From: Thermoprotei archaeon
GTDB lineage: Archaea; Thermoproteota; Methanomethylicia; Nezhaarchaeales; WYZ-LMO8
Direction: 5' to 3'
Assembly (NCBI GenBank): GCA_003649565.1
Contig: QMSF01000005.1
Coordinates: 1-12,815, forward strand
Length of the DNA: 12,815 nucleotides
The notes under the pieces are model-generated. The model was not told the origin of the DNA. It saw only the letters and a program-made list of their open reading frames with translations, and ran no database searches. Positions 4,546 through 11,764 of this stretch are shown here, in pieces (positions within the stretch are counted from its first letter, which is position 1; every line of letters begins with the position of its first letter). The position numbers were made by a program, and so were the translations under genes.

Positions 4546-5181
4546 TTATTCTTGATTTATATTATTAATCGAATTCCTACGAAAACCCTTGCATATTAAA
4601 TAAGTTTCTCTGCTTTTAGGCTTTGATGCTTTTGGTTTGAAGAGGCGTATTTTATCAAACATGTCGCGCAATTTAGTTATTAACTCATTAAGTTCGTTGC
4701 TTTGAAATACCTTAATAACAGCAATGCCTCCCTGTTTAAGTGTTTTAGAGGCAAGTAGGAGAATACAGTTTACTAAATGGAAATGTCTTGCTATATCTGT
4801 TAGCCATACACCAGTTAGTTTAGGTGAAGTATCAGATAGTATTACATCAGCTTTGCGTGGCAATATCTTGATTATTTCCTCATGAGTATTTTCATCGCAT
4901 ACATCACCTACTATTGTAATTACGTTTGGGGGCTCTAACTTCTTAATAGGTTTTAGGTCAACACCTATAACAAGTCCTTCTTTTCCAACAACCTCTGATG
5001 CTACTTGTAGCCAACCTCCAGGATAGGCTCCTAAATCTAGGACGATATCACCTTTCTTAAGGATGTTAAATTTTTTGATAATTTCCATGAGTTTGAAGGA
5101 GGCACGAGATCTTAAGCCAAGCTGCTTTGCCTTTTTATGATAAAAGTCTTTTGCCCTTTCAATGCGCCATCGCTTTGACAT
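4546..5181 (-). CDS. rlmE: RlmE/FtsJ-type 23S rRNA 2'-O-methyltransferase
   Basis: Ribose methyltransferase of the RrmJ/FtsJ family. The bacterial enzyme methylates U2552 in the A loop of 23S rRNA, and the archaeal homologues are expected to do the same. The 211 residues carry the whole K-D-K-E tetrad: K30 in RASFKL, D117 in SDTSP, K157 in VIKVFQ and E192 in SRETYL. The SAM loop is DLGAYPGGW at 49-57. There is no C-terminal TRAM domain, which some archaeal homologues have; the tail (about 200-211) is short and Asn-rich. The ATG at 5181 lies 9 bases after the stop of the TFE-beta-like gene, with no clear SD. The neighbouring trm1 is also an RNA methyltransferase. Confidence 0.94.
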   Translation of the reverse strand: MSKRWRIERAKDFYHKKAKQLGLRSRASFKLMEIIKKFNILKKGDIVLDLGAYPGGWLQVASEVVGKEGLVIGVDLKPIKKLEPPNVITIVGDVCDENTHEEIIKILPRKADVILSDTSPKLTGVWLTDIARHFHLVNCILLLASKTLKQGGIAVIKVFQSNELNELITKLRDMFDKIRLFKPKASKPKSRETYLICKGFRRNSINNINQE

Positions 5182-9797: not shown

Positions 9798-11372
9798 GTG
9801 AAGTTCTGTTTAAAAGGGTACATAATCTTGAGTAAACCACTCGATGCAAATGGAACTAAGAGATTGTCAGAACTTATCGTTGAAGCGAACAAGAGCCTCT
9901 TAATTAAAGGTGCACCTAAGGGTAAGGAACAAGAGGCAGCTCGAGTAGTGAGCTGGTCGATCGATGCTGATAAGGTGTACTTAGAAATCGAGTCTGGAAG
10001 ATATGTTCGCGCGCACGATGCGCTATTCAGGTTAAAGAACAGTTTAGGCTTGAGTTTAGGAAGAGAATTCAGAATTGGCGTAAGGGGATTTGGTGCGACA
10101 TCTTATGAAATTGAGGTGCCTAAATTTAAAGGCGATATCGAAGAGCTTAAGAAGTTAATAGGCAATCTTGGCGTCGTTGAGATAGCTGATGAAAAATTGA
10201 TTATTAAACTTGGAGAGTTAAGTGAAAAAGACCTTGAAGCTAGGCTTGTAGATAGACTTGTAAAAAAGATTTTGGAAGGAGCAGCTGGAATCTCTGAGGA
10301 GCAGGCAAAACTTGTCCCCTTTGGTTATGTTTTAGAGCAGGCAAAACCCAAGCCCGTTAAGGTTAAACTAGAAGTTGCGAGTGAAGCTGAGAAACTAGGA
10401 TGGATAAAGAGATTCCCGGCTAAAGGGCAGTGGATCTTTACGGCACCAATGGTTGGTCTTTTAAAAGTCATGCGTGATTTAATAATTGAATACGTTTGTA
10501 AACCATTAGGCTTTGAAGAATGGATGTTTCCAAGGCTTATACCAATGTCTGTATTAGCAAAGCTTTCAAGCTATGTTGAACATCTTCCAGAAGGAATGTT
10601 CTATGTATGTATCCCGCCGAGGGATCCATCAGCTTTTGATGAGTACAAGAGGGAGTATGCTTTAAAGCGCATATTACGCAAGGATCTGCTAAAAGAAATA
10701 CTTGGTGAGCCTGAATACATACTTGATGCTGTTCAATGCCCACCATTCTATCAGTTCTTCAGTGAGGAGACTGTAAGGCTTGAAGACCTGCCAATAAAGG
10801 TTTATGAATGTATGGGTGGGTGGACTTGGAGAAATGAGGCTGGCGGCGTTGAAGGACTAGCTAGAACAAATGAATTTTGGCGTATGGAGATGGTTTACTT
10901 AGGCTCACCGAATGACGTCGTTAAGATAAGGGATGAGGTCGTTTCAAGAACTATTGAGCTTGTAGACAAGATCTTGGATCTCGAATGGAGGGTAGTGGTA
11001 GGAGCTCCATTTTATCTTTCAAGTGAAGAAGCAAGCAAAAGACGTGTAGACATATCATCGAGAGACAAGATACCGACTCTCGATGTGGAATGTTATCTAC
11101 CATATAGAGGAGAAAGAGGAAAAGCCGAATGGCTAGAGATAACAGCTGCCAGCGTACATTATACTCATTACGTCTCAGCTTTTAAGATAAAAGAAGTAAA
11201 AGGACGGGAAATATGGACAGGGTGTACGGGTCACGGGTTGACAAGATGGGCTACAGCTTTTCTAGCTCAACATGGTTTCAATCCGTCTGACTGGCCAAGC
11301 AAAGTGAAAGATCTATATGAAAAATATGGTCCCTATAAAGTCGTGAAAACGCTTGAATGGCCTCCAAAATAA
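9798..11372 (+). CDS. serS: Type-2 (methanogen-type) seryl-tRNA synthetase
   Basis: Charges tRNA-Ser (and tRNA-Sec where present) with serine. The 524 residues match the rare archaeal SerRS2, not the common bacterial/eukaryotic SerRS. The N-terminal tRNA-binding domain (about 1-165) is alpha/beta rather than a long coiled coil. The catalytic class II core carries motif 2 at about 344-365 (WRNEAGGVEGLARTNEFWR) and motif 3 at about 475-494 (GCTGHGLTRWATAFLAQHGF). The serine-binding zinc ligands known from the Methanosarcina barkeri enzyme are all found: C314 in AVQCPP, E364 in WRMEMV and C476 in WTGCTG. The GTG at 9798 is fixed by a strong SD. It is the third gene of the hypE run, 12 bases after the peptidase. 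Identity is strong because zinc ligands and motif 3 agree. Confidence 0.94.
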   Translation: MKFCLKGYIILSKPLDANGTKRLSELIVEANKSLLIKGAPKGKEQEAARVVSWSIDADKVYLEIESGRYVRAHDALFRLKNSLGLSLGREFRIGVRGFGATSYEIEVPKFKGDIEELKKLIGNLGVVEIADEKLIIKLGELSEKDLEARLVDRLVKKILEGAAGISEEQAKLVPFGYVLEQAKPKPVKVKLEVASEAEKLGWIKRFPAKGQWIFTAPMVGLLKVMRDLIIEYVCKPLGFEEWMFPRLIPMSVLAKLSSYVEHLPEGMFYVCIPPRDPSAFDEYKREYALKRILRKDLLKEILGEPEYILDAVQCPPFYQFFSEETVRLEDLPIKVYECMGGWTWRNEAGGVEGLARTNEFWRMEMVYLGSPNDVVKIRDEVVSRTIELVDKILDLEWRVVVGAPFYLSSEEASKRRVDISSRDKIPTLDVECYLPYRGERGKAEWLEITAASVHYTHYVSAFKIKEVKGREIWTGCTGHGLTRWATAFLAQHGFNPSDWPSKVKDLYEKYGPYKVVKTLEWPPK

Positions 11373-11420: not shown

Positions 11421-11564
11421 TTAAGAATTCTCCTTTTCCATATACATATCACAGCTATCAGCAGGCGTTGTCCATATCGAGCGGGCTCTACAATACCCTT
11501 TATTTAAATCGTAGTTCTTGCAGTTATAGCAAGAACCCTTCAAAAAGCCGAGCGTAGCCGACAT
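11421..11564 (-). CDS. Small 47-residue four-cysteine protein
   Basis: A short minus-strand frame, ATG 11564 to TAA 11421, in a stretch otherwise without a large gene. It encodes cysteines at 12, 15, 25 and 38 (C-x2-C-x9-C-x12-C): SCYNCKNYDLNKGYC, then RARSIWTTPADSCDMYMEK. An aromatic residue after the CxxC, a Gly two before the third Cys and a Cys-Asp-x-Tyr end recall small Zn or [4Fe-4S] proteins, including the small HiPIP-like subunits of some glycyl-radical enzymes; that likeness is from memory. It has an SD (GGTGAG, 4-base gap) and a TATA-like box upstream. The opposite strand also holds a 48-codon frame with an SD, but of Ser/Tyr-rich, featureless composition. Function unknown. Confidence 0.62.
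   Translation of the reverse strand: MSATLGFLKGSCYNCKNYDLNKGYCRARSIWTTPADSCDMYMEKENS
11514..11536. repeat. Perfect 8-bp inverted repeat inside the four-Cys gene
   Basis: GTTCTTGC (11514-11521) and GCAAGAAC (11529-11536) pair perfectly around a 7-base loop. On the minus strand the hairpin spans the codons of the CxxC motif. No T-run follows on either strand, so it does not look like a terminator. Confidence 0.5.
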
Positions 11565-11630: not shown

Positions 11631-11694
11631 GGCGTCAGTCCGCCCATCACCCATCATCGCATGGAGCTCTTAGACCGTCATTTCTTCATCCGCC
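11631..11694 (-). ncRNA. Box C/D guide RNA, predicted to target 16S rRNA C1402 (E. coli numbering)
   Basis: Read on the minus strand, 64 bases have the order of a C/D sRNA: terminal stem GGCG (11694-11691), box C ATGAAGA (11689-11683), a 9-base first guide, a weak D' CTAA (11673-11670), C' ATGATGG (11657-11651), a 12-base guide GTGATGGGCGGA (11650-11639), box D CTGA (11638-11635) and closing stem CGCC (11634-11631). Stem and boxes are spaced as a k-turn needs; box C differs from RTGATGA by one base. The D guide pairs with the universal 16S segment CCGCCCGUCAC over 11 bases with one G-U. The fifth base from box D then lies opposite C1402, a site methylated in bacteria and, by snoRNA, in eukaryotes. 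Nop5 and fibrillarin are in the same window. The D'/C' half is weaker (12-base spacer). Confidence 0.6.
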
Positions 11695-11711: not shown

Positions 11712-11764
11712 AGCTGAATATTAGGATTCCTGTCTTTAACCGTAACTTCAAGCGGCATTCAGCT
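11712..11764. repeat. 8-bp inverted repeat, 37-base spacer
   Basis: AGCTGAAT (11712-11719) is the exact reverse complement of ATTCAGCT (11757-11764). The left arm overlaps the possible box A of the guide RNA. No ACA box or pseudouridylation pocket could be fitted, so it is not called an H/ACA RNA. Confidence 0.35.
11717..11724 (-). promoter_or_regulatory. Possible box A for the C/D guide RNA
   Basis: CTAATATT on the minus strand is centred about 26 bases before 11694, the first base of the predicted RNA stem. The distance fits an archaeal box A, but the sequence is a weak match. Confidence 0.3.

Follow-up and report, generated by a model that had tools for sequence, protein, structure and literature searches.

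The window analysed here, a stretch of 12,815 nucleotides of DNA from a Thermoprotei archaeon, carries the genes for Nop5 and fibrillarin, which the first-pass annotation had named and which matches to PF01798 and PF01269 confirm, as well as serS (Table 1). A gap of 458 bases separates serS on one side from a phosphoesterase ORF on the other, and within this gap, on the minus strand, lies an element with the layout of a box C/D sRNA. No ORF of at least 70 aa runs over this element; two short ones, of 32 and 47 aa, do so on the plus strand.

Table 1. Features of the window that bear on the putative sRNA gene; the parts of the element are given in the 5' to 3' order of the RNA.
Feature	Positions	Strand	Basis or remark
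Nop5 gene, sRNP scaffold	9-1226	plus	PF01798, 1.2e-70
Fibrillarin gene, 2'-O-methyltransferase	1234-1923	plus	PF01269, 1.3e-98
serS	9798-11372		
TATA-like stretch TAATATT	11717-11723	minus	23-29 nt upstream of the stem
Putative box C/D sRNA gene, mature part	11631-11694	minus	conserved in L001-L004 and class genomes
Terminal stem, 5' arm GGCG	11691-11694	minus	covaries with 11631-11634
Single G between stem and box C	11690	minus	
Box C, ATGAAGA	11683-11689	minus	sequence; one difference from consensus RUGAUGA
D' guide, AATGACGGTCT	11672-11682	minus	complements 23S 2587-2596 (E. coli numbering)
D' box, AAGA, degenerate	11668-11671	minus	alignment; many relatives have TTGA
Short loop between D' box and box C'		minus	
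Box C', ATGATGG	11651-11657	minus	sequence
D guide, GTGATGGGCGGA, 12 nt	11639-11650	minus	complements 16S 1399-1409; N+5 is C1402
Box D, CTGA	11635-11638	minus	sequence and alignments
Terminal stem, 3' arm CGCC	11631-11634	minus	covaries with the 5' arm

The terminal stem, boxes C, C' and D and the 12-base guide are found in the sequence at the place, in the order and on the strand first assigned to them. That initial list of boxes was right in what it named, and overlooked the D' box and the D' guide. With these two included, the element combines boxes C and D, a terminal stem and a k-turn, with a single departure in box C, and an internal C'/D' pair serving two guides at a spacing of about 12 nt, the D spacer measuring 12 nt and the D' spacer 11 nt. 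Each guide is complementary to rRNA, the base adjoining box D being unpaired in the window. The k-turn of box C/D RNAs consists of a stem, a three-base bulge and then a GA facing the GA of CTGA; here the bulge is G-A-U, 3 nt long, counting the G at 11690 ahead of box C. A reading of box C as GATGA, abutting the stem with no k-turn bulge, was dropped: relatives with ATGATGA fix box C as ATGAAGA and the bulge as GAU. Also disfavoured was a D' box CTAA with a 9-nt guide, as relatives put TTGA further on and the pairing with 23S rRNA spans that stretch. Many relatives combine TTGA with a D' spacer of 12 nt, where the window has AAGA with 11 nt. Box C, box C' and above all the D' box of the window RNA deviate from consensus; among the 75 aligned copies described below, box C reads ATGAAGA or ATGAAGT in 46, ATGATG in 16 and ATGACG in 4.

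Relatives of serS with 75-82 percent identity occur in four genome records, titled Candidatus Methanomethylicota (L001), Candidatus Nezhaarchaeota (L002 and L004) and Thermoprotei (L003), and blastn of the gap located the element downstream of serS in all four. A loose box pattern, scanned over the window and 27 loci, matched only the window and L001-L004. Over these five close loci the element is 63-70 nt long. Their alignment shows hardly any change in the terminal stem, box C, the D' guide or the D-guide core, variation in the loop and in the last bases of C', and much lower similarity in the flanks, with the exception of L003, which shares about 250 bases, downstream flank included, with the window at 74 percent. 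The first-pass annotation had proposed that its claim be checked by aligning this intergenic region among relatives and by a model search, and in both the boxes and the guide prove to be conserved. Just downstream of the element, on the same strand, lies a cysteine-rich ORF of 47 aa (11421-11564, minus strand, MSATLGFLKGSCYNCKNYDLNKGYCRARSIWTTPADSCDMYMEKENS); L003 has a close version of it, whereas a search for the motif in L001, L002, L004, L029 and L032 found none.

The wider distribution was followed with two models. R1 was built from the five copies (the window and L001-L004) and applied to what we call the class, that is, the 40 genomes grouped with G004, the genome of L004. It gives matches at E<=1e-4 in 34 of these genomes, four of them sources of the model, and at E<=1 in 39; in the six that fall short of the stricter limit, whose genome sizes are about 0.3-1.4 Mb, the best match ranges from 7.8e-4 down to none. 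R2, built from 31 sequences, falls below 1e-4 in 68 of 398 genomes of the phylum, 34 inside the class and 34 outside it, and in none of 289 bacterial control genomes (the class of a record titled Alphaproteobacteria bacterium), where the best match is 6.0e-4. At E<=0.01 the counts are 112 of 398 in the phylum vs 11 of 289 in the control, and because the control also gives such matches, those in the phylum weaker than about 1e-4 are individually unsafe. From four non-class archaea with a related serS came matches of 2.2e-4 (G005) and 0.036-0.31 (G234, G219 and G006), so that the RNA is not demonstrably universal in the phylum.

An alignment of 75 sequences (A5) was assembled from the window, 30 class loci, four further R2 loci and 40 R2 regions, the last taken mostly in rank order, with some ranks skipped and most matches weaker than about 5e-4 left out. 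Four of the 75 could not be parsed and were omitted from the counts by guide position. The motif GGGCG beside box D is absent from five of the 75, by one base in L043 and L103 and clearly so in L110, L136 and L138. These last three, R2 matches of 28.8-35.5 bits without the GGGCG guide core, are likely to be false matches or different C/D RNAs; the counts include them, and they stand as a warning about weak matches in the phylum list.

Of the cells that this alignment (71 distinct sequences) gives for the four base pairs of the terminal stem, 92.4 percent hold a formed pair. Changes on both sides occur at every one of the four pairs, where shuffles expect 2.7 and 29 of 500 reach four, and amount to 45 cells, vs 9.0 in the shuffles. 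The covariation score, obtained with an alignment model that itself includes the stem and judged against shuffles that ignore kinship, is 0.468 vs 0.124, a value that none of 500 shuffles reaches; versions of the stem slid along the alignment stay at or below 0.083. The register of the stem is hardly free, because it abuts box D. Within the class, covariation is seen at one pair, G-C becoming U-A in three sequences. Minimum-energy folds of the single strand, computed for five sequences, are little or no better than those of shuffled sequences (z of -0.47 to -1.95), as is expected of a C/D RNA.

The region upstream of the stem is promoter-like. Besides the TATA-like stretch of the window, 24 of the 35 class members have an all-A/T hexamer at -30 relative to the stem; the count drops to 8-10 at -36 to -32 and at -28, and to 0-2 between -26 and -20 and between -42 and -40. 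The 40 relatives outside the class show a weaker peak (7-9 of them at -30 to -26). The hexamer stands at the distance of an archaeal TATA box from a start near the stem, and the minus strand is therefore favoured.

Pairing of the two guides was judged on the 16S and 23S rRNAs of relatives, which stand in for the window's own rRNA. Nineteen class genomes have a 16S that includes the target of the D guide, and in every one it reads ACCGCCCGUCGC; the others have no 16S or a fragment without the target site. This sequence pairs with the guide; a failure of the genome's own 16S, for which the relatives' stands in, to do so had been named beforehand as ground for abandoning the claim. In the window guide the pairing extends from C1399 to C1409 and includes U-G wobbles opposite G1405 and opposite G1408, and the N+5 rule supports 16S C1402 as its predicted target. 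The first-pass annotation had counted one G-U pair and an unpaired base next to box D as the only irregularities; both are there, and it missed the second G-U pair, at G1408, because the class target reads ACCGCCCGUCGC and not ...CAC.

Among the 35 class members used for guide counts (34 genomes and the window), each of positions 3-10 of the D guide pairs with 16S 1400-1407 in 34 or 35, position 11 in 33, position 2 in 25, position 12 in 7 and position 1 in 5. Position 8 is T in 32 members and C in 3, both of which pair with G1405. Since the targets are invariant in the class, covariation between guide and target is not observable there; in G005 and G006, archaea outside the class, U replaces C1400. 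When the window guide is run along the 16S of G004, the most stable 12-base windows lie at the C1402 site (-21.8 to -23.0 kcal/mol). With each genome's own guide, no other 16S site does better than this one in 13 of 14 genomes, the exception being G004, whose own guide reaches -20.5 kcal/mol at another 16S site vs -19.5 at C1402. The match of the D guide to rRNA, taken alone, is equalled by 3 of 200 shuffled 16S+23S sequences and is thus only moderately rare, so that the case rests on conservation.

For the D' guide, a scan of the rRNAs points to the peptidyl-transferase centre of 23S rRNA, where the target UUAGACCGUCGUG occupies 2585-2597 (E. coli numbering); a target in 16S was rejected, the best window there reaching -11.2 kcal/mol. 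In the window, 12 contiguous pairs, one of them a wobble, form with UUAGACCGUCGU at 23S 2585-2596, the pairing continuing through the AA of the D' box to 2585. The target motif is present in 15 of 15 LSUs examined, and the D' guides of 27 of the 35 class members pair over 10-13 nt at this site; the other eight have no run of at least 8 pairs with 2585-2597, L045 by a single mismatch. The D' score is equalled by 1 of 200 shuffles. For relatives that combine TTGA with a 12-nt spacer, the N+5 rule gives C2590 as the D' target; in the window it would be C2591 if AAGA serves as the functional box. Behind position 2590, and behind position 2558 considered below, stand what we take to be the E. coli 23S letters. 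Both numbers follow from equal lengths against those letters together with the U2552 row of PMC11542601, and a count of +38 from the same row makes the equivalent of C2590 yeast Cm2959 and human Cm4536 (PMC11542601).

In 13 of the 75 copies (the phylum relatives L105, L106, L109, L111, L118, L119, L127, L128, L129, L133, L137, L139 and L140), GAGTCA precedes D' and its complement TGACTC opens the D-guide region, as if the D' guide had turned into a stem presenting the D guide.

The D guide also fits the A-loop of 23S rRNA, and this loop, rather than 16S, could be its main target. The guide would then cover 2555-2564 with N+5 at C2558, 32 nt from the D' target, and both guides would act on 23S, an arrangement resembling many linked double guides. 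The window guide makes 10 contiguous pairs with the A-loop sequence CCCGCCCAUUAA at -18.9 kcal/mol, its best 23S site in G004, and in 11 of 14 genomes the best 23S window of the D guide overlaps the A-loop site, which in archaea reads CTGCCC or CTGCTC. Moreover, U at guide positions 8 and 11 forms Watson-Crick pairs with 23S A2561 and A2564 but only wobbles with 16S, and U11 accompanies a 2590-type D' guide (GGTCT): over the 32 distinct sequences among the 35 of the class, it occurs in 20 of 25 with such a guide and in 0 of 7 without (Fisher p 2e-4, kinship uncorrected). Nevertheless, over the same 12-base span the window guide reaches -21.8 kcal/mol on 16S vs -18.9 on the A-loop, and in 13 of 14 genomes, all but G016, the 16S duplex has the lower energy, though the margin is frequently under 1 kcal/mol. 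Outside the class, with fit to 16S scored against the class sequence, position 8 suits 16S in 35 of 36 sequences and 23S (base T) in 14, the corresponding counts for position 11 being 27 and 4. What the wider family has in common is the 16S target, and we consider a main target in the A-loop unlikely; C1402 would be the shared target of the family, and the A-loop possibly one added in the lineage of the window.

Two further readings carry less weight. The RNA might act mainly as a folding chaperone on the A-loop strand, the 2585-2597 strand or helix 44 of 16S rRNA, with methylation a secondary matter; such a role has been put forward for dual-guide sRNAs (PMC4644070), and both guides of this RNA have targets in functional centres. 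We regard this as improbable, however, for the boxes and the N+5 geometry are kept along with the guides, a 2'-O-methyl at the C1402-equivalent base is reported in P. abyssi (PMC7005279) and nothing requires a chaperone. That the element is a chance look-alike or a decayed sRNA could be argued from its degenerate D' box, from the few shuffles that equal its guide match and from folding energies close to those of shuffles, but the reading is scarcely credible in view of the conservation and stem covariation over 75 sequences, the promoter-like position and the bacterial control. The boxes and both guides are kept while the loop and flanks change, and the stem covaries, which rules out a chance origin.

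The minus strand at 11631-11694 thus most probably encodes an archaeal double-guide box C/D sRNA for 16S C1402 and 23S C2590 or C2591. The original proposal of a C/D guide RNA aimed at 16S C1402 finds support in conservation, stem covariation, promoter placement and kept pairing. A TATA promoter of its own, in the gap that separates serS from the phosphoesterase gene, would drive transcription of the sRNA, whose two k-turns would be bound by L7Ae, with Nop5 and fibrillarin completing the sRNP. Through the D guide, seated on 16S 1399-1409, C1402 in the P site of the decoding centre would be positioned for 2'-O-methylation, and through the D' guide, on 23S 2585-2596 in the peptidyl-transferase centre, C2590 (or C2591) would be positioned likewise. 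In bacteria the 2'-O-methyl of C1402 is made by RsmI, a protein-only enzyme (PMC11542601). None of the 40 class genomes has a match above the cut-off to the RsmI model (TIGR00096), three of them giving weak matches at E<=0.001, while the model is positive in 12 of 14 control genomes, E. coli among them. The window that encodes Nop5 and fibrillarin also holds an FtsJ-family methyltransferase gene (4546-5181, minus strand; PF01728, 2.9e-54), whose product is a candidate for making, by protein alone, the mark at 23S U2552 that RlmE makes in bacteria.

The type of RNA, its first target (C1402) and the mark are already known, and an archaeal C1402 guide is not a new idea. The 2'-O-methyl of C1402 is listed for bacteria, eukaryotes and one archaeon in a table of PMC7005279, where Cm1376 of P. 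abyssi, equal to E. coli 1402, figures among the 16S modifications; the P. abyssi base equal to E. coli C1402 is given as Cm1369 in PMC11542601. According to PMC3511168, sR12 of Pyrococcus and Sulfolobus was predicted for the snR70 site by Gaspin et al. (2000), and is thus, like the window RNA, an archaeal C/D sRNA predicted for 16S C1402. For the Rfam family sR12 (RF01147), the 40 class genomes gave no match above the cut-off, a result of little power because the 14 control genomes gave none either; the phylum relatives L108, L113 and L114 score 20.6-22.7 bits, the cut-off being 38. The printed consensus of RF01147 is without the GGGCGG guide, whereas the window RNA has a predicted C1402 guide, and Rfam's sR12 may therefore differ from that of Gaspin et al. 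In an Rfam scan of the window, nothing matched the element at E<=1 and no family reached its gathering score, while a scan of the short stretch gave 10 sub-threshold matches at E<=10, all of them snoRNAs or scaRNAs and nine on the minus strand; a match at gathering score is not required of an archaeal box C/D sRNA, Rfam modelling single families.

SNORD43/U43, yeast snR70 and Arabidopsis AtU43 are listed as C/D snoRNAs for the C1402-equivalent base as well; unlike them, the window RNA has a second guide that points to 23S. For this second site, Pyrobaculum calidifontis sR30 and Ignicoccus sR124/127 are predicted guides of 23S C2864 in alignment numbering (PMC4644070); with C2880 equal to E. 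coli C2606, this position works out as E. coli 2590, to which the D' guide also points. sR30 couples C2864 with C2880, whereas the window RNA couples its 2590-type target with 16S C1402. Predictions in helix 44 are described as sparse (PMC4644070), and section 4 of that paper, together with term searches of its text outside the supplement, yielded no C1402 guide. The portions of PMC11698992 and PMC5539422 consulted hold nothing bearing on a C1402 guide RNA. In the titles, opening lines of abstracts and some passages of main texts that the literature searches covered, we found no report of the window RNA, of a class-wide family or of a single RNA guiding both 16S C1402 and 23S C2590.

As a tentative extension, perhaps somewhat against the odds, one sRNA may mark C1402 together with C2590 or C2591 in most of the class, the D guide also fitting C2558 of the A-loop, which would be a third site in a functional centre, in the lineages with a 2590 guide. 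In yeast, marks of the C1402 type and the 2590 type are handled by separate snoRNAs, snR70 and snR73. Alignable across an archaeal class and into further genomes of the phylum, the putative guide RNA offers a traceable example of the RNA-guided route to C1402. Earlier work left undecided whether the archaeal and eukaryotic C1402 guides share a common ancestry or arose by convergence (PMC3511168), and the present family supplies sequences with which these two possibilities can be tested. Finally, if the D' target is true, a single RNA would serve the active centres of both ribosomal subunits.
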